Shown in pieces: positions 22,887 through 53,925 of a stretch of DNA of 64,000 nt. The stretch comes from Phycisphaerae bacterium (GTDB lineage: Bacteria > Planctomycetota > Phycisphaerae > Phycisphaerales > Phycisphaeraceae): contig JAUIGU010000004.1 in NCBI GenBank assembly GCA_030432595.1, positions 62,001 to 126,000 of the forward strand. Reading direction: 5' to 3'. How positions within the stretch are numbered: position 1 is the stretch's first letter; every line of letters starts with the position of its first letter. The notes beneath the pieces were generated by a model. That model saw only the letters and a list, made by a program, of their open reading frames with translations. It had not been told where the DNA came from and did no database searches. The translations under genes were made by a program, and so were the position numbers.

Positions 22887-23528
22887 GTGGACTACAACGC
22901 TTGGCGAAACGAGGTTTTTGGCAAGCCGCCGAACTTTGATCCTGTCTGGGATGAATTGTCGGAACGGTTTGACTGCCTTGCGCCGTCCGAGCACGTTGTG
23001 TTCATCGATCGCATCTTGATGGACCCCGAAGTCCATGAAACCTACACGGTTGGTCAGATCGGTATTGGACTTAGATTGTTATTCGACAACTGCTCCTCCA
23101 CACACTTTGCGTTTTCGCCGTGAGTCGAAACGCAAACTCGGTTAGAATTGATTGGCAAACTTCGATTCGTTTACACCGAGTATTTTGATCGATACTGTAT
23201 CTGGCCGGTCACAACTGTTGGCAATGACCTCGGGGTTGGTGAGTATGCCGACATCGGATACGTCTGTTACATGTTCTGGGAAAACTTCAATCCGGTTTTT
23301 CGTGAAGACCCAGCAGAGCTGCAAAAGAGTGTATTGAGCGTAATGAATGCTGGGCTCCATTCTAGAAATGACCCTTCCATTGTCTCGGCGATTCATGGAT
23401 TGGGTCATGAAGTGCGTTCCGACCCGGATGCAAAACGATTGCTTGAAAAGTGGCTGAAGGCGCCAACGACGGGTAATGCGAACGTCCTGGATTATGCTCG
23501 GCAAGCAACCACTGGATGTATCCAGTAG
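22887..23528 (+). pseudogene. Hypothetical gene interrupted by an in-frame TGA
   Basis: Two open stretches in the same frame, 22887-23123 (78 aa) and about 23124-23528, are separated only by the TGA at 23121-23123. The frame continues sensibly across it (CSSTHFAFSP, stop, VETQTRLELIGKLRFVYTEY). The whole would be about 213 aa. The second half carries features recalled from a family of planctomycete hypothetical proteins: VYTEYFDRYC, SAIHGLGHE, LDYARQATTGCIQ. It may be a nonsense-mutated pseudogene, two genes with a TTG restart at 23148, a sequence error, or a recoded TGA. GC content is visibly lower than in accD and mutS on either side, hinting at separate ancestry. Confidence 0.6.
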
Positions 23529-23697
23529 GACTGCTCCTCAGTCTCTGCCTTTGGAATCGTCCGTACCCAAGCTCGTCGCCTGTGCTCCGGTCCAGTTGTT
23601 GAGTAACGACAAGGCGTCGGCGGAAACGAGACTGCGAAACCACTCATGGCTGTAATCCCGTGACGGTCGAATCACGTCCGCGCCGGTACGTTTTCGG

Positions 23698-26454
23698 TTA
23701 CTCCGGCTGGCTAAGTACGGTGAGCTTGCGCAGCGCATCGAACGCCTGCATCGGCGTCATGTCGTCGAGGTTGAGATCACGGAGTTGTTGGACGGCCGGG
23801 TGCTCGACGTACTCGGTGAACAGCGACATCTGTGGCACGCCCTCGCGCCGGCGTTTTGCCGGGGCGTTCGCGGACGGCGGGGCATCGGCGGCGGGGTGGC
23901 TTCCGGGGGCGGCGAGGTCGGCGAGGAGTTCGTTGGCGCGTTTCACGACGTCGGCGGGGAGGCCGGCGAGTTTGGCGACGGCGATGCCGTAGGACTTGTC
24001 GGTGGCGCCGGGCTCGATGCGGTGGAGGAAGACGATCTGGTCGTTCCACTCGCGGACTTTCACGTTGAGGTTGCCGACCCCCGGAAGGGATTCACTCAGT
24101 TGCGTGAGTTCGTGGTAGTGGGTGGCGAAGAGGGTGCGGCAGCCGAGCTGGGCGAGGTGTTCGGTGATGGCCCAGGCGAGGGCGAGGCCGTCGTAGGTGC
24201 TGGTGCCGCGCCCGATCTCGTCGAGGATGACGAGACTTGCGGGGGTGGCGTGGTGGCAGATGTTGGCGGTCTCGGTCATCTCGACCATGAAGGTGGACCG
24301 GCCGGCGTGGAGCTCGTCGTGGGCGCCGACGCGGGTGAAGATGCGGTCGCACAGGCCGACGGTGGCGGCGGCGGCGGGCACGAACGAGCCGGTGTGGGCG
24401 AGCAGGGCGATGAGCGCGGTCTGCCGGATGTACGTGGATTTGCCGGCCATGTTGGGGCCGGTGATGAGTTGCAGGGTCGAGGGGGTCTGGGGTCTGGGGC
24501 TTGGGGCTTGGTCTGCGATGGATTCTTCCCCCGACCCCAAGCCCGAGACCCCAGACCCCAGCTCCACGTCATTGGGCACGAACTGGTCGCCGAGGAGTTC
24601 GTCGAGGACGGGGTGGCGGCCGGCTTCGATGTGCAGGACGGGTTTATCGACGAGGGTGGGCGCGATGTAGTTGTGTTTGATGGCGCGCTGGGCGAAGCAG
24701 CGCAGCACGTCCAGCTCCGCGACGGCTTCGCTGAACGCGTGGAGCGCGTCGAGGTACTGCTCGCAGTCGCCGCAGAGCTTGGCGAAGAGTTCGTTTTCGC
24801 GGGCGACGGCGCGGTCCTTGGCGGACAGGACGTTGCCCTCGTATTCCTTGAGTTCGGGCGTGATGTAGCGCTCGGCGTTCTTGAGCGTCTGCTTGCGCGT
24901 CCACGCGCCCCCGGAAGTGCCGGCCTCGCCCGACTTTTTCATGAAGTCGTCGGCTTTTTGTTTGTTCGCGGCGGTGACCTCGATGTAGTAGCCGAAGACC
25001 TTGTTGTAGCCGACCTTGAGCGAGGCGATGCCGGTCTCCTGGGTGATCTTGCCCTGGTACTCGGCCAGCCAGGCGTCGGAGTCGGCCATCAAGTCGCGCT
25101 GGGTGTCGAGGGCGTGGTCGTGGCCGTCGCGGAAGAGGCCGCCTTCGCGCAGGTGGGCGGGCGGGTCGTCGCGGCAGGCCTCGGCGATGCGCTGCGACAG
25201 CGGGCCGAGCGCGTCTCGGACGGTTTCGATGCGGGCGTGGTACGGCGCGACGGACTCGCGCTCGGCGAGCGCCTCGGCGACGGCGTCCACGGCGGCGGCG
25301 GACTGTCCGAGCGCAACGAGGTCGCGCGGGCTGGCGCGGCCGACGGCGAGTCGGGCGCACAGGCGGGGCACGTCCTGCACGCCGTCGAGGGCTTCGCCGA
25401 GCGTGTCCACAAAGCGTGCGTCGTTTACCAGCGACGTGACCACGCGTTGGCGCTGCATGATCGCGTCGCGGGATGCGAGTGGGTAGCACAGCCAGTCGCG
25501 GAGCTTGCGTTTGCCCATGGCGGTGCGGCACGCCCGGCCGTTCTGCCCCAGGACGCCGACGAGCGAGCCGGCCGTGCTGTTGCCGCGCAGGGTGCGCTCG
25601 ACTTCGAGCGACGCGAGCGAGGTCTGATCGATGACCAGGTGGTTTTCTCGGGCGAAGCGTTGCGGCGGGCGGAGGTGGGCGAGCCGGGCGTCCGCCGATT
25701 TGTTTTCCCCCGGGCGTTGCGTTTCTAGCAGGTAGTGCAGCACGCAGCCGGCCGCACCGAGCGTCGGGTCGTCTTCGCGCAGCCCGAACCCGCCGAGCTC
25801 GGCGACGCGGTACTGCTTCTTCAATAAGGCCGCGGCTTCGGAAGGGCGGAAGGGCCATGCCGGCCGTGCGGTGAGCGGGCAGTTCTCCGGGGCGACCTCT
25901 TGCACGCGCGAGGGCGTGACGCCGTCGGCGGTTTCGCAGTAGAGCACTTCGACCGGGCCGACACGCGTGAGCTCGTCGCGCACGGAGTCGACGGGGAGCT
26001 CGGCGATCATGAACGCGCCGGTGGACAACTCCGCCCACGCGAGGGCGGCGCGGTCGTCGCCGAGGAACGCGACGGCGGCGAGCGGCGCGGGTCGGCTTTC
26101 GTCCAGCAGCGTGTCATCGGTGAGCGTGCCGGGCGTGATGACGCGGGTGACATCGCGCTTCACGACGCCTTTCGCCTGAGACGCTTCTTCGACCTGGTCG
26201 CACACGGCGACGCGGTGCCCGGCCTGGATCATGCGGCGCAGGTAGCCCTCGACGCTGTGGTACGGCACGCCCGCCATCGGCACGCCCTCGGTGCGCTGCG
26301 TGAGCGTGACGCCCAGCGTGCGGTGCGCGAGCTCCGCGTCCTCGAAGAACATCTCGTAGAAATCGCCCATGCGGAAGAACAGCACGCACCCGGGGTGCTG
26401 CTCCTTGAACCGGCGGTACTGCCGCATCGCGGGCGTGTCGGTCTTGGCGGGCAT
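23698..26454 (-). CDS. mutS: DNA mismatch repair protein MutS with a repeat-derived insertion
   Basis: A 918-aa mismatch-recognition ATPase. The N-terminal domain has RFKEQHPGCVLFFRMGDFYE (the Phe-x-Glu mismatch-contact motif is FRMGDFYEMF). The connector, lever and clamp domains follow, and the ATPase domain has Walker A GPNMAGKSTYIRQ, SLVILDEIGRGTSTYDG and ATHYHEL. The C-terminal helix-turn-helix is present. About 27 residues (roughly 631-658, Gly/Ser then Pro/Gln/Thr-rich: GSGVSGLGSGEE, SPRPQTPS) lie between the strand leading into Walker A and Walker A itself, where other MutS proteins have a short turn. The DNA of this insertion is a palindromic repeat also found near 49.7 kb. Diverges from priA. 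Confidence 0.95.
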   Translation of the reverse strand: MPAKTDTPAMRQYRRFKEQHPGCVLFFRMGDFYEMFFEDAELAHRTLGVTLTQRTEGVPMAGVPYHSVEGYLRRMIQAGHRVAVCDQVEEASQAKGVVKRDVTRVITPGTLTDDTLLDESRPAPLAAVAFLGDDRAALAWAELSTGAFMIAELPVDSVRDELTRVGPVEVLYCETADGVTPSRVQEVAPENCPLTARPAWPFRPSEAAALLKKQYRVAELGGFGLREDDPTLGAAGCVLHYLLETQRPGENKSADARLAHLRPPQRFARENHLVIDQTSLASLEVERTLRGNSTAGSLVGVLGQNGRACRTAMGKRKLRDWLCYPLASRDAIMQRQRVVTSLVNDARFVDTLGEALDGVQDVPRLCARLAVGRASPRDLVALGQSAAAVDAVAEALAERESVAPYHARIETVRDALGPLSQRIAEACRDDPPAHLREGGLFRDGHDHALDTQRDLMADSDAWLAEYQGKITQETGIASLKVGYNKVFGYYIEVTAANKQKADDFMKKSGEAGTSGGAWTRKQTLKNAERYITPELKEYEGNVLSAKDRAVARENELFAKLCGDCEQYLDALHAFSEAVAELDVLRCFAQRAIKHNYIAPTLVDKPVLHIEAGRHPVLDELLGDQFVPNDVELGSGVSGLGSGEESIADQAPSPRPQTPSTLQLITGPNMAGKSTYIRQTALIALLAHTGSFVPAAAATVGLCDRIFTRVGAHDELHAGRSTFMVEMTETANICHHATPASLVILDEIGRGTSTYDGLALAWAITEHLAQLGCRTLFATHYHELTQLSESLPGVGNLNVKVREWNDQIVFLHRIEPGATDKSYGIAVAKLAGLPADVVKRANELLADLAAPGSHPAADAPPSANAPAKRRREGVPQMSLFTEYVEHPAVQQLRDLNLDDMTPMQAFDALRKLTVLSQPE
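24483..24564. repeat. Palindromic repeat inserted in mutS
   Basis: The left part 24483-24506 is identical over 24 bases to 49650-49673. The right part (about 24532-24562) is a GACCCCAAGCC/CCAGACCCC-type inverted copy, so the unit can fold on itself. Its length keeps the mutS frame open. It encodes the Gly/Ser/Pro/Gln-rich segment just before Walker A. Confidence 0.75.
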
Positions 26455-29043: not shown

Positions 29044-30159
29044 ATGCCGATGAAGATGGTCCCCGGGAAAGGTCGTTGTGTCGCCGCGTCGGTGCGGCTG
29101 TGGCTGGCTGCCGCGCCGGTGGTGGTGGCCGGCTGTTTCGTGGGCGCCGCACCGGAGGCCTCGGCGATCACGATCCGCGAAGACGTCGCCATCAAGACCA
29201 TCAACAACCGCAGCAACCGCCCGCGCTACAAGTCCATCGGCCGGTTCGACACCAACGCCACGCACCGCTCGCTCGCCGGCACCGGCACGCTGGTCGCGCC
29301 CCAGTGGGTGCTCACCGCCGCCCACGTCGTCGACGGCGCCAACGCCCAGAAGTTCACCGTCGGCAACCAGACCTACAACATCGCTGGCTGGGCCGCGCCC
29401 CCGCAGTACGACACCGACCCCGGCTTCGGCTACGACCTCGCGCTGGTCAAGCTCGACCGGCCCGTCACCGGGATCGACCCCGCCGACCTCTACCGCACCA
29501 ACAGCTCCGAGCTCAACCGCACCGGCATGATCCTGGGCTACGGCTACTCCGGCACCGGCGCCACCGGCGAAAACAACCGCACCGCCCAGACCCTCCGCAT
29601 CTCCACCAACCGCATCGACGGCGTCCAGGGCGGGCAGATCCTCCTCACCGACTTCAACGCCCCCGACGGCAGTGGCAACCAACTCCACACCAACGAGGTC
29701 ACCCGCTTCGAGGGCGGCCTCACCCCCGGCGACTCCGGCGGCCCGGCCTTCATCTACGACGGCAGCAACTTCACCCTCGGCGGCGTCGCCGTCTTCGCCT
29801 CCGACGTCGGCGACGGCATCCTCGACGGCGACTACGGCGAGATCAACGGCTTCGTGCGCGTCCAGCCGCACATCTCATGGATCGACTCGGTCATCACCGG
29901 CAACCCGACGCTGCGGACGGCGGCGGCAACTGCGGTCGATGTCACGAAGCGTGGTGCCGGCACATTGACGCTAACTTCGACGAGCGAACTCGGACAAATC
30001 GAGGGTGGCACACTAAGTTCGATCGTTACTCCTCTGAGCGGTTCTGACCTTCCTCTTGATGAAAATGGCATTTATGTGATTGGGCAACCTGTTCCCGAGC
30101 CCGCGACGCTCGCGATCCTGGGCGGTCTGGGCCTCCTTAGCCTGCGTCGCCGCCGCTGA
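29044..30159 (+). CDS. Trypsin-like serine protease with PEP-CTERM tail (paralog A)
   Basis: A 371-aa exported protease. A signal peptide (about 1-41) is followed by a chymotrypsin-fold domain with the triad His94 (VLTAAHVVDG), Asp131 (YDLALVKLD) and Ser231 (LTPGDSGGPAF). A divergent segment of about 70 residues follows, Ser/Thr/Gly-rich and from DNA of lower GC. The end is PVPEPATLAILGGLGLLSLRRRR-like: a PEP motif, a hydrophobic helix and a basic tail, the exosortase sorting signal. GGGAG about eight bases ahead supports the ATG at 29044. It is paralogous to the gene at 33028: both share RSNRPRY, GYGYSG, TGENNRTAQTLR and RFEGGLTPGDSG. Confidence 0.93.
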   Translation: MPMKMVPGKGRCVAASVRLWLAAAPVVVAGCFVGAAPEASAITIREDVAIKTINNRSNRPRYKSIGRFDTNATHRSLAGTGTLVAPQWVLTAAHVVDGANAQKFTVGNQTYNIAGWAAPPQYDTDPGFGYDLALVKLDRPVTGIDPADLYRTNSSELNRTGMILGYGYSGTGATGENNRTAQTLRISTNRIDGVQGGQILLTDFNAPDGSGNQLHTNEVTRFEGGLTPGDSGGPAFIYDGSNFTLGGVAVFASDVGDGILDGDYGEINGFVRVQPHISWIDSVITGNPTLRTAAATAVDVTKRGAGTLTLTSTSELGQIEGGTLSSIVTPLSGSDLPLDENGIYVIGQPVPEPATLAILGGLGLLSLRRRR

Positions 30160-33027: not shown

Positions 33028-34434
33028 ATGCCGTCGCTCATCCGCCTGCCCGGCCGCACCCACGCGGGCTTGATCGCCGTGGCCGTCCTGGCGACATCGC
33101 TCGTCCCGCCGCCCAACGCCGCCCGCGCCGCCACCGTCCGCGCCGATGTCGATCTCGCCACCATCAACCACCGCAGCAACCGCCCGCGCTACCACGCCGT
33201 CGGCCGGTTCGACACCGACGCCGCCCGCCGCTCCCTCGCCGGCACCGGCACCCTCGTCGCCGACCAGTGGGTCCTCACCGCCGCCCACGTCCTCGACGGC
33301 ATGAACACCCAGACCTTCACCCTCCGCGGCCAGACGTACAACGTTGAAGGCTGGACCGCGCCGCGCGGCTACGTCAACGACCCCACCTTCTTCACCGACA
33401 TCGCGCTCGTCAAACTCGACCGGCCCGTCACCGGCATCGAACCCGCCAAGCTCTACCGAACCAACAACCCGGAAATCAACCGTACCGCCATGATCCTCGG
33501 CTACGGCTACTCCGGCCACGGCGATACCGGCGAAAACAACCGCACCGCGCAAACCCTCCGACTCACCACCAACCGCATCGAAACCATCGACTCGGCCCAC
33601 GTCCTCCGCACCGACTTCGACAACCCCGCCGGCGGCTTCAACCCCTACGCCGGCAACGGCATCACCCGCTTCGAGGGCGGCCTCACCCCCGGCGACTCCG
33701 GCGCGCCCGCCTTCATCTTCGACGGCCACGACTTCACCCTCGGCGGCATCGGTGTCTACGCCGACGACCTGCTCGGCGGCCCGCTCGACGGTAACTACGG
33801 CGAAGAGAACGGCCTGCTCCGCGTGCGCTCCCACATCGACTGGATCGACTCGGTCATCGCCGGCGGCGTGAGCGACCGCGAATTGTTCCTGTCCAACCTC
33901 TCGACGTATCAAGGCGACCTCGAGGACCTGCTCGCGAACACGCCGAACCACCCCCCGATCGTCGGCTGGACGAGCACCCATCCGACAGGCACGATTAAAA
34001 AGGCCGGAGGTACTCTGGAATTCAACAATGGCTCATTAGTTGTCAATCCCGGCGGCTCGATCAATGGCGAGGTGCGTTCGACAGTCACAGTCAACGGCGG
34101 TGTTACTTTGGACCCTGGGGTTTTCGCAACCTATAACCTCATCCCAACGCAAAGCATCGACTCCATTGTGGGCTGGTCTTCTCTGTATCCCACCGGCCAG
34201 ATTGAGCAGGGCGATCTCGACGCCGTGCTGCAAAACTGGGGGCAGACGAATACGCCGGAGGTCATTGGCTGGACCAACCACTTCCCGACCGGGCAGACGG
34301 ACCTAGACATGATCCTCACGAATTGGGGCGACGTCGCATCGCCGAGCAACCCGAGCCCCCTCCCCGAGCCCGCGGCGGCACTGATTGCTTCGGGTTTTCT
34401 GTCCGCAAGGTGGCGGCGAAAAATCCGCCCGTGA
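33028..34434 (+). CDS. Trypsin-like serine protease with dockerin-like repeats and PEP-CTERM tail (paralog B)
   Basis: A 468-aa exported protein. A signal peptide (about 1-35) precedes the protease domain with His87 (VLTAAHVLDG), Asp124 (TDIALVKLD) and Ser224 (LTPGDSGAPAF; Gly-to-Ala after the usual GDSG). The C-terminal region, from DNA of visibly lower GC (about 33960-34330), carries a beta-rich stretch (GGTLEFNNGSLVVNPGG) and two QGDLDAVLQNWGQ / TDLDMILTNWGD dockerin-like units. It ends with PLPEPAAALIASGFLSARW and a basic tail. It is the paralog of the gene at 29044; the protease domains align throughout, while the C-terminal parts are unrelated, so modules have been exchanged. Confidence 0.92.
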   Translation: MPSLIRLPGRTHAGLIAVAVLATSLVPPPNAARAATVRADVDLATINHRSNRPRYHAVGRFDTDAARRSLAGTGTLVADQWVLTAAHVLDGMNTQTFTLRGQTYNVEGWTAPRGYVNDPTFFTDIALVKLDRPVTGIEPAKLYRTNNPEINRTAMILGYGYSGHGDTGENNRTAQTLRLTTNRIETIDSAHVLRTDFDNPAGGFNPYAGNGITRFEGGLTPGDSGAPAFIFDGHDFTLGGIGVYADDLLGGPLDGNYGEENGLLRVRSHIDWIDSVIAGGVSDRELFLSNLSTYQGDLEDLLANTPNHPPIVGWTSTHPTGTIKKAGGTLEFNNGSLVVNPGGSINGEVRSTVTVNGGVTLDPGVFATYNLIPTQSIDSIVGWSSLYPTGQIEQGDLDAVLQNWGQTNTPEVIGWTNHFPTGQTDLDMILTNWGDVASPSNPSPLPEPAAALIASGFLSARWRRKIRP

Positions 34435-34482
34435 ATGTCGGCTACCGCCAGACACACCCGCTCGTCTTCAAAGGTCGCACCA

Positions 34483-34570
34483 TCAGAGCCGGGAGCGTCA
34501 GCGACCGGTCCGGCTCGGTGCTTACGCCCGGCCTCTCGGGACCACCGGTCGCTCACGCTCCCGGCTCTGA
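34483..34570. repeat. Palindromic element, AGAGCCGGGAGCGTCAGCGA family, copy 1
   Basis: Arms 34483-34509 and 34544-34570 match at 26 of 27 positions as an inverted repeat around a 34-base spacer. The same arms occur at 53795-53869. It follows the stop of protease paralog B by about 50 bases and could also terminate its transcript. Confidence 0.8.
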
Positions 34571-34640
34571 CGAAGCTTGCGTTGAGTTTGACGCCGGTTT
34601 CCTGCGCACGGTTGGCCCGCGACTTCGCCGCGGCGCCTTG

Positions 34641-35031
34641 ACCTGCGGATAGAATTGAATGTGCGAGAGTGGAGCGTGGCCTCCGCGTGGGTGCCAGGTG
34701 GGTGAGGGCTTGAGTTCCTTAATCACGAAGTAACGTGTGGCCTTGGACGCGGGTTTGTCGGGAAGGATTCCGACTGACGCCGTCTCCCGCCGGAACCCCC
34801 CGAGTGAGTCCCATCCGAAACGCGGTGACGGCGGGTTGCAAAACCGACGCCGGGCGGGGGCCTGCGGATCGTGACGACGGTCCCGCCCCGGGTTGTTTCG
34901 AAGCGAGTTCATAGCGAGCCGGGCCGTGTCGGCCCGGGTTCCGGACACCGGGGCGACACGCCCCGGCTCGCCAGAGGCGCACACGGCGTTCTTTGACATG
35001 TGAAGCAGGGGCGTAAGGAGTCCCACAATGC
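34641..35031. repeat. Long intergenic repeat, copy 2 (~390 bp)
   Basis: Second copy of the element at about 2308-2706, in the same orientation. Conserved blocks include about 34676-34728 and 34779-34853. The large hairpin (34916-34935 with 34950-34969) and the 3' boundary GAAGCAGGGGCGTAAGGAG are also retained. Differences include several 1-2 base indels. It lies between protease paralog B and the DUF1549/1553 gene. Confidence 0.85.
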
Positions 35032-46761: not shown

Positions 46762-46830
46762 AGTGGCCAGTGGCGAGTTGACCAATGGCCGGTGACCCTT
46801 TTGTATTTGCATCACTGGCCACTGGCCACT
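46762..46830. repeat. Inverted repeat between pilB and pilT
   Basis: AGTGGCCAGTGG (46762-46773) and its complement CCACTGGCCACT (46819-46830) pair perfectly over 12 bases. Short TGGCC units also lie between them. It lies in the 109-base gap between the two motor genes and could fold in the message between the extension and retraction motor frames. Confidence 0.6.
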
Positions 46831-46863
46831 GAAAACTAGCCACAGTTTGCGGAGCAAACCCCC

Positions 46864-49600: not shown

Positions 49601-49649
49601 GACCGCGCGGCGTTGTTGCGCGACGCGACGACATGCCCGCGCACAGCGC

Positions 49650-49806
49650 GGGTCTGGGGTCTGGGGCTTGGGGTCTGGGAAAAGGAACGAAGCGCGGCGG
49701 GCGCGCGACATCAGCAAACGTCGCGGCGCGCAGCGGAACTCGGGGCATCAGGCAGCGGGGTCGCGGCGTGTCGGCCGAACCCCAAACCCCAAGCCCCAGA
49801 CCCCCG
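49650..49806. repeat. Palindromic repeat, GGGTCTGGGGCTTGGGG family (intergenic copy)
   Basis: The left arm begins at 49650 with 24 bases identical to 24483-24506 in mutS. The right arm at 49778-49806 is its approximate inverse (ACCCCAAGCCCCAGACCCC). The roughly 105-base core between the arms has no clear ORF. It separates the small bactofilin gene from the zinc-ribbon bactofilin gene. Confidence 0.75.
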
Positions 49807-49811
49807 CGCCA

Positions 49812-50234
49812 TCACTTTTTGTCGCCGCCGCCTTGCTGGCCACCTTGTCCGCCTTGCGGCTGGCCGCCGGAGGGTTGACCGGAGGGTTTGGGCGCGCCCT
49901 TCTTGGCGTCGGGGCCGACGGAGCACATGCCGTAGAACGACGCGCCCTCGGCCATGACCATCTTGGCGGCGGTGATGTCGCCCTTGACGGTGCCGTTGGC
50001 GTTGAGGCGGACGGCGTCGGAGGCGGTGACGTTGCCCTCGATGGTGCCGTCGATGTTGGCGACGGCGGCCTCGACGTCGGCCTGGCAGGTCGCGTTGTTG
50101 ACGACCTGGAGCTCGCCCTTGCCGGTGATCTTGCCGTCGAACTTGCCGATGATGCGGGCGGTTTTCTCGAACATGAGCTCGCCCTTGAAGTGGGAATCGG
50201 CGCCCACGACGGTGGTTTCGCTGCCTTCAGCCAT
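49812..50234 (-). CDS. Small bactofilin
   Basis: A 140-aa polymer-forming cytoskeletal protein. The beta-helical core shows ETTVVGADSHFKGELMFEK, ARIIGKFDGKITGKGELQV, VEAAVANIDGTIEGNVTASD and VRLNANGTVKGDITAAKMV. The C-terminal 35 residues are a Gly/Gln/Pro linker ending in DKK. AAGGAG eight bases before the ATG at 50234 supports the start. It lies upstream of the zinc-ribbon bactofilin-like and coiled-coil genes in the same direction, with the palindromic repeat between. Confidence 0.93.
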   Translation of the reverse strand: MAEGSETTVVGADSHFKGELMFEKTARIIGKFDGKITGKGELQVVNNATCQADVEAAVANIDGTIEGNVTASDAVRLNANGTVKGDITAAKMVMAEGASFYGMCSVGPDAKKGAPKPSGQPSGGQPQGGQGGQQGGGDKK

Positions 50235-53665: not shown

Positions 53666-53794
53666 CCTTTCACCATCGGCCGGTTTGCGGTGCCAGCCGG
53701 AGATTCACGGCTCGCGCGAATCGATCGGATTCAGGCCTTCTTTGTTGCCGTCGAACGCCCACGATCGCCGCAATAGCGCGCAGACTGCTCTACG

Positions 53795-53869
53795 TCAGAG
53801 CCGGGAGCGTCAGCGACCGGTTCCGCCTTGCGGGTCGTGGCAACCGGTCGCTGACGCTCCCGGCTCTGA
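53795..53869. repeat. Palindromic element, AGAGCCGGGAGCGTCAGCGA family, copy 2
   Basis: Arms 53795-53822 and 53842-53869 pair perfectly over 28 bases around a 19-base spacer. The arms are the same as those at 34483-34570. It lies between the divergent flippase and prenyltransferase-repeat genes, so it cannot be a terminator for either. Confidence 0.85.
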
Positions 53870-53925
53870 TCGTGCGTGAATGGACCATCGACTGGGCCAT
53901 CGGTCTCGGTGCGTATCATGGCGTC

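Follow-up and report, generated by a model that had tools for sequence, protein, structure and literature searches.

The 64-kb window examined here, by which we mean the whole stretch of DNA analyzed (64,000 nt), carries an intact mutS gene that contains, in frame and just before the Walker A motif, a palindrome built of 7-base (heptad) units. The features of the gene, together with two further heptad palindromes of the window, are as follows.

23698–26454, minus strand: mutS, an intact open reading frame of 918 aa (NCBIfam NF003810, 951.8 bits vs. a cut-off of 480)
24436–24459, minus strand: Walker A motif GPNMAGKS, residues 666–673, unchanged in the translation
24480–24566: heptad palindrome, in frame in mutS at about residues 630–659 (lag-7 arrays with inverted partner)
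24482–24506, plus strand: G-rich arm (inverted-repeat comparison)
24507–24534: loop of 28 bases between the arms
24535–24559, plus strand: C-rich arm, complementary to the G-rich arm at 24 of 25 positions
46762–46838: heptad palindrome of another family, CCACTGG/GGCCAGT (lag-7 scan)
49647–49806: sister element of the mutS palindrome, 6 bases beyond the stop codon (49812–49814) of a minus-strand frame

The lag-7 arrays of the mutS insert occupy 24480–24513 and 24535–24566, with an inverted partner score of 22. Sequence comparison bears out the initial annotation in its reading that the 24 bases at 24483–24506 are identical to 49650–49673, and the complementarity of the arms agrees with its statement that the right part of the repeat is the inverse of the left. 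Matches to the motif with no more than three mismatches number ten in the 64-kb window vs. 0.59 expected, a count reached in none of 100 shuffles; an Rfam search of the window returned no family at gathering score. Relative to E. coli MutS chains, the extra residues follow FVPND and precede the strand that enters the P-loop. We read 50 MutS loci of the order and 80 of outgroups and could anchor 48 and 72 of them, dropping the 2 and 8 unanchored rows. From the HPV anchor to TGPN there are 47 residues in this MutS vs. 23–27 in 67 of the 72 anchored outgroup sequences, a gain of ~23 residues over most of them; extra in-frame residues had been correctly called, but their number had been put at ~27. 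The ATPase motif itself is intact, and the columns of G666, P667, N668, M669, G671, K672, and S673 are invariant across 43 MutS sequences (GPNM.GKS). The insert is a copy of a dispersed repeat specific to this genome, and we find support for the proposal of a dispersed palindromic repeat in frame directly ahead of Walker A, tolerated by the protein as a loop. The sister element had been described as intergenic. This stands on the side of the stop codon, some 6 bases away; on the opposite side the element is entered by a minus-strand open frame, and the description depends on where that frame starts. The GGCCAGT unit of the palindrome at 46762–46838 also makes up the MutS loop array of a genus-mate (G001).

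The window belongs to contig C69; the draft genome (G000) comprises 73 contigs and 4.39 Mb. A scan of the genome collection with this MutS yielded distant relatives, and we call the genome planctomycete on the strength of the nearest named hits, which are of Phycisphaerales and Planctomycetota, among other phyla. The core of the mutS repeat, GGGTCTGGGGYTTGGGG, occurs in this genome in 48 copies, 24 on each strand, mostly as convergent pairs (36 pairs with 30–167 bases between cores; 34 by a second count). Copies of the core were found in 6 of 60 relatives, with a maximum of eight in G036, and none occurred in the genus-mate G001. The exact CTT form was present in one of 392 genomes drawn from the phylum, namely this genome; G008, G048, and G053, with one CTT copy each among the 60 relatives, fall outside that draw. 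The arms are arrays of a 7-base unit (GGGGTCT or GGGGCTT), in most cases arranged convergently as a pair with an unrelated spacer between them. When 25 spacers of at least 20 bases were compared, only two reciprocal 11-base matches were obtained at E ≤ 0.05.

The mutS family is not the only one of its kind. A lag scan for tandem periods was run without reference to the motif, counting as inverted partner any within 300 bases. Period-7 arrays had an inverted partner in 20 of 29 cases in 400 kb of contig C17 of the same genome, in 5 of 6 in the window, and in 18 of 24 in 400 kb of the relative G010; at periods 5, 8, 10, 11, and 13 the same three regions each yielded 0–5 arrays with such a partner. 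Units of our genome include GGGGTCT, TCGGGGT, GATGGCG, CAGTAGT, and CCACTGG, and those of G010 GATTTCG and GAGTGAC. The genome holds several unrelated heptad families, mostly as inverted pairs; the mutS unit has GGGG runs, and several families (e.g., CAGTAGT and GATTTCG) are without them. Heptad density differs among relatives. G007 has 21 arrays in 53 kb, G023 has 17 in 100 kb, and G028 has 2 in 40 kb, all three counts being raised by the choice of contigs for the genes under study; G046 has 4 in 80 kb, G024 has 1 in 40 kb, and G004, G006, G008, G019, G031, and G057 have 0–2 per 80 kb each. In G007 (L369–L371) the arrays are very dense, and no fewer than eight different units occur within those 53 kb.

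In-frame heptad arrays extend to other core genes. In 464 kb of sequence from our genome that was not picked by motif (C17 and the window), 15 palindromic elements had an inverted score of at least 11, and four of these lie inside genes confirmed by family models, namely MutS, MiaA, NadE, and LysS. Places with a spanning frame numbered 37, and ten of the array-bearing frames were submitted to Pfam, with matches to MiaA, LysS, NadE, GcvP, a BioA-like aminotransferase, DnaE, TsaD, HisF, CN-hydrolase, and RarA/MgsA. NCBIfam cut-offs were passed by seven of the nine scanned (MiaA, LysS, NadE, GcvP, DnaE, TsaD, and HisF), with the BioA-like and RarA-like proteins below them. The inserts lie between domains in LysS (OB fold, 137–207; catalytic domain from 273), NadE (CN-hydrolase to 437; synthase from 474), and DnaE (NTPase domain to 684; finger from 755). 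In HisF two heptad families are mixed, with an inverted score of 8. Arrays also occur in locus L090, which from its sequence we take to be an epimerase, and in G010 proteins that are presumably PriA-like and ketosynthase-like.

Heptad arrays recur at the MutS loop across the order. A lag-7 score of at least 11 was obtained in 10 of the 48 anchored loci (G000, G001, G007, G009, G010, G019, G023, G028, G029, and G036), vs. two at period 8 (G019 and G024) and none at periods 5, 10, or 11. The inverted score likewise reaches 11 in eight of the ten periodic loops, the exceptions being G001 (8) and G009 (10). The units are different: GGCCAGT in G001, GAGTGAC in G010, TCGGGTA in G007, AACTCGA in G023, and GGACTCT in G028, so that loop content differs even between genus-mates (GGGGTCT in our genome vs. 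GGCCAGT in G001). The loop of G019 fits period 8 better than 7, and with that of G024 it indicates that 7 is not the sole unit length; the two period-8 loops read AAGGGGCC (L275, G019) and GGCTCGGT (L113, G024). Among the 72 outgroup sequences a lag-7 array was found once, in a verrucomicrobial MAG (L252, unit AATTGCC, score 14) whose MutS may not be intact, since a stop codon lies in its MutS range. The statement that other MutS proteins have only a short turn here is true of most outgroups but not of the order, where 23 of the 48 anchored sequences have at least 38 residues. The initial annotation had set a repeat insertion against an old loop, seen as the same insertion with unrelated codons in all relatives. 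The latter case holds only in part: these 23 members do have a long loop at the site, but in ten of them it is made up of a 7- or 8-base array, which argues that the site has been filled again and again and is not one old loop.

Heptad arrays recur likewise, on smaller samples, in other enzymes. For DnaE and NadE, 30 loci each were read and 25 anchored, five unanchored rows being dropped in each case; for LysS, RarA, and the other genes the anchors caught only some loci. DnaE loops contain arrays in 5 of 25 loci (our genome, G009, G024, G045, and G049), with a single case at control periods, at 8; the G049 array (score 11) is a CCCTCTCCC-type repeat. NadE loops contain them in 4 of 25 (our genome, G007, G041, and G049), with one control case each at 5 and 10. 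Only the NadE element of our genome has an inverted partner, the other three being single arrays, and its linker is nearly equal in length to that of G001 (88 vs. 89), so no length has been added over G001. Arrays were present, our genome included, in 3 of 5 anchored TsaD loops, 2 of 3 MiaA, 2 of 6 HisF, 1 of 3 LysS, and 1 of 2 RarA. Recurrence in DnaE, NadE, TsaD, MiaA, and HisF often takes the form of a single array without an inverted partner. In the genus-mate G001, none of the six anchored genes (DnaE, NadE, LysS, MiaA, HisF, and TsaD) carried a heptad array. The DnaE loops L292 (G024) and L296 (G049) hold non-heptad palindromes as well (GGCCTGCGGACTTGAGTCCGCAGGCC-like in one form, CTCCCTCTCC...GGAGAGGG in another), which suggests that these linkers accept several kinds of repeat.

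We consider it probable, at roughly 0.78, that the heptad repeat in mutS is one case of a recurrent, unit-switching insertion that takes place across the order. Each heptad-rich genome would have its own units, whose copies would land mostly between genes; copies falling within genes would survive only if in frame, free of stop codons, and situated in a linker. Such limits on survival would explain why the same linkers (in MutS, DnaE, NadE, TsaD, MiaA, and HisF) are refilled by unrelated units in different genera. The repeat would have entered mutS in frame at a length-tolerant beta-hairpin loop and been kept there as a disordered loop. The repeat families, the copies lying in frame, the reuse of sites, and the intact ATPase motif are observed, whereas both parts of this reading, recurrent independent insertion rather than one old insert and selection on where copies survive, are inferred.

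An opposing account is that each linker received one ancestral insertion whose arms were later rewritten by the dominant heptad family of each genome through concerted evolution. The MutS spacer might then conceivably be an old acidic linker retained while the arms around it were rewritten. On a MutS tree built with the loop excluded, a single branch of 11 rows (support 97/96), most of them with long loops, unites eight of the ten periodic ones, and one GGGTCT-like unit is common to three of the ten (G000, G029, and G036). The ten rows need four changes on this tree, three of them forced by well-supported branches, vs. 7.7 with shuffled labels (3 of 500 shuffles as low as 4), indicating one or a few origins of a receptive loop. 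On the other hand, units such as GGGGTCT and GGCCAGT, of our genome and its genus-mate, are too dissimilar for homologous conversion. This difference in loop content, together with the lack of arrays in the six other anchored genes of G001, favors repeated insertion, and we judge the ancestral account unlikely as a general explanation. For MutS itself, one old insert with fast sequence turnover is possible.

With regard to how the copies of a recurrent insertion arise, our leading, though tentative, guess is that short stretches are copied by template switching, with microhomology of a few bases as guide. It is prompted by native codons that continue the repeat in register at the left edge of the MutS insert (Leu-Gly, CTGGGG) and at the right edge of the TsaD insert (CCGTACCCCG, with the same codons in the uninserted G001 gene). 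At the insert edges compared in several genes for a target-site duplication, repeat and native codons merge. In LysS a native GTCTGG is close to the repeat without sharing its register, and no edge microhomology was seen in RarA, DnaE, or NadE; as a clue to copying, these edges can be taken as suggestive only.

We place the action of a transposase in trans second, as less probable. In its specific form, a REP/RAYT or MITE-type element moved in trans by a tyrosine (Y1) or other transposase, we regard it as doubtful. A dispersed family with inverted ends would fit, the genome has three Y1_Tnp matches, and intragenic in-frame REPs are on record (PMC3733652). However, Y1_Tnp counts do not track heptad richness, being 3, 4, 3, and 1 in the heptad-rich G000, G007, G010, and G023, and 0, 1, 2, 2, 6, and 8 in the compared genomes G008, G019, G004, G006, G031, and G057. 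Moreover, none of the three Y1_Tnp genes in our genome is adjoined by an array, the nearest being ~1 kb away, and spacers are unrelated between copies, unlike those of one MITE. RAYT mobilization therefore gained no support from either the counts or the surroundings of these genes, and the unrelated spacers weigh against whole-element transposition.

It is also conceivable that arms are made on the spot, with slippage expanding an array and fold-back copying writing its inverse (quasi-palindrome formation). A unit length of 7 common to unrelated families would agree with this, as would the previous association of heptanucleotide repeats with polymerase slippage, as told in PMC4679880. Yet slippage alone gives no single family dispersed genome-wide, and the two arms of an element were no more similar (mean score 20.62) than arms of different elements (20.69; P = 0.56, 10,000 permutations of 34 elements picked by their common core, a choice that lowers power). 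Among these core-picked elements local fold-back copying is thus not borne out, and we hold on-the-spot formation to be quite improbable.

What the insert means for MutS was considered at the levels of protein and mRNA. AlphaFold2 modeling of this MutS with 43 sequences gave a mean pLDDT of 87.9. Segments of at least three residues with pLDDT < 50 were 1–3, 637–648, and 852–882, of which only 637–648 lies in the insert, and the flanking strands (628–632 and 661–665) and the P-loop helix were predicted. Our reading of the model is a probable floppy loop beside an intact ATPase site. The further suggestion of the initial annotation, that ATP binding or mutation rate may be altered, finds no support in a model in which Walker A is intact, the flanking strands are predicted, and low confidence in the insert is confined to those 12 residues. 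A related idea is that the element has been kept for a function, either as a stable hairpin tuning mutS translation or as a loop tuning ATP turnover. The mutS mRNA segment indeed folds at −66.3 kcal/mol (z −6.75), and none of 200 shuffles was as low. Nevertheless, any palindrome gives a strong hairpin, the same repeats are located mostly between genes and in unrelated enzymes, and relatives have non-palindromic repeats or none at the MutS loop, making retention for function very unlikely in our view.

Several known systems resemble these repeats in part, as judged from the portions of the sources cited here. Heptameric G-rich repeats have been described in Xanthomonas and Nostoc, in each of which a single unit was studied as a G-quadruplex (Rehm et al., 2015; PMC4692102). 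Xanthomonas has 70 (Xcc) and 75 (Xac) convergent heptamer pairs, and 11% and 7% of the copies are intragenic and 89% and 93% intergenic (PMC4692102). Our repeats share with them 7-base, GGG-rich units that are dispersed, convergently paired, and mostly intergenic, but differ from that account in their in-frame inserts in loops of conserved enzymes, in having several families per genome, and in the reuse of loops by other units in relatives (PMC4692102). Rickettsia palindromic elements (RPEs) form families of ~150 bp with a conserved encoded peptide, as told in a review (PMC10969869). They too are palindromic repeats tolerated in frame in unrelated protein genes, here MutS and ten further genes; unlike RPEs as described there, our elements have arms of 7-base units around unrelated spacers, and other genomes place other units in the same linkers (PMC10969869). 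GTAG/CGTC REPs are short tagged stem-loops with stems of 5–13 or 8–9 bp; many of those inserted in frame are found in genes for replication and repair, a verrucomicrobium being among the hosts, and two Xanthomonas species carry REPs at nearly the same position of recB (PMC3733652). The in-frame palindromic inserts, including one in a repair gene, are alike, whereas arms here are 22–25 bp with period 7, and a common GTAG/CGTC start tag is not apparent by eye on the arms of our genome; the main text of that report makes no mention of MutS among REP-bearing genes (PMC3733652). TAACTGA direct repeats, found in Beggiatoaceae, cyanobacteria, and Bacteroidetes mainly just upstream of start codons, are likewise 7-base repeats abundant in one genome, but direct ones, unlike our mostly inverted pairs (PMC4679880). 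Unlike copies of a MITE, the copies here share no interior among the 25 spacers compared. Coding palindromes are also reported from nematomorph mitochondria (PMC6649704). Among the literature matches listed, we found no report of heptad arrays refilling the same enzyme loops. In-frame palindromes (RPE and REP) and convergent heptamers (Xanthomonas) are known; that unrelated heptads refill the same linkers seems to be new. What had first been read from this sequence did not include the construction from 7-base units, the further repeat families, the additional core genes hit, or the reuse of loops in relatives.

Our genome has its own repeat in mutS, and in its relatives other heptads occupy matching loops of these core enzymes; seven-base repeats thus seem to supply proteins with extra floppy loops time and again. 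If so, core enzymes are still acquiring disordered loops today, at positions that a comparison of genera reveals, and heptameric repeats and protein-coding palindromes would belong to one process. A caution also follows: an unusually long loop in a planctomycete protein may be a remnant of repeats and not a functional domain. More speculatively, heptad palindromes could be one class of propagating DNA whose common features are the length of the unit and the inverted arrangement, not the sequence. Some activity would copy short 7-base arrays to new sites, with quick switching of units, and in-frame linker arrays would decay into the long non-periodic loops of relatives. Planctomycetes, and perhaps other phyla, might in this way continually gain disordered linkers in enzymes of replication, repair, translation, and metabolism.

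The window contains other repeats besides the heptads. A dispersed palindromic repeat (TCAGAGCCGGGAGCGTCAGCGACCGGT and its inverse) with arms of 28–42 nt that lack period 7 lies at 34468–34585 and 53790–53876. A stretch duplicated at 2321–2700 and 34653–35028 consists of three blocks of 86–98% identity, and each copy includes a near-perfect palindrome of two 29-nt arms; a 300-nt repeat (29169–29468 vs. 33132–33431) has 80% identity. The stretch at 22890–23530, which separates mutS from a presumably AccD-like gene, is AT-richer, with a short open frame at 23148–23528, and may be foreign or decayed.
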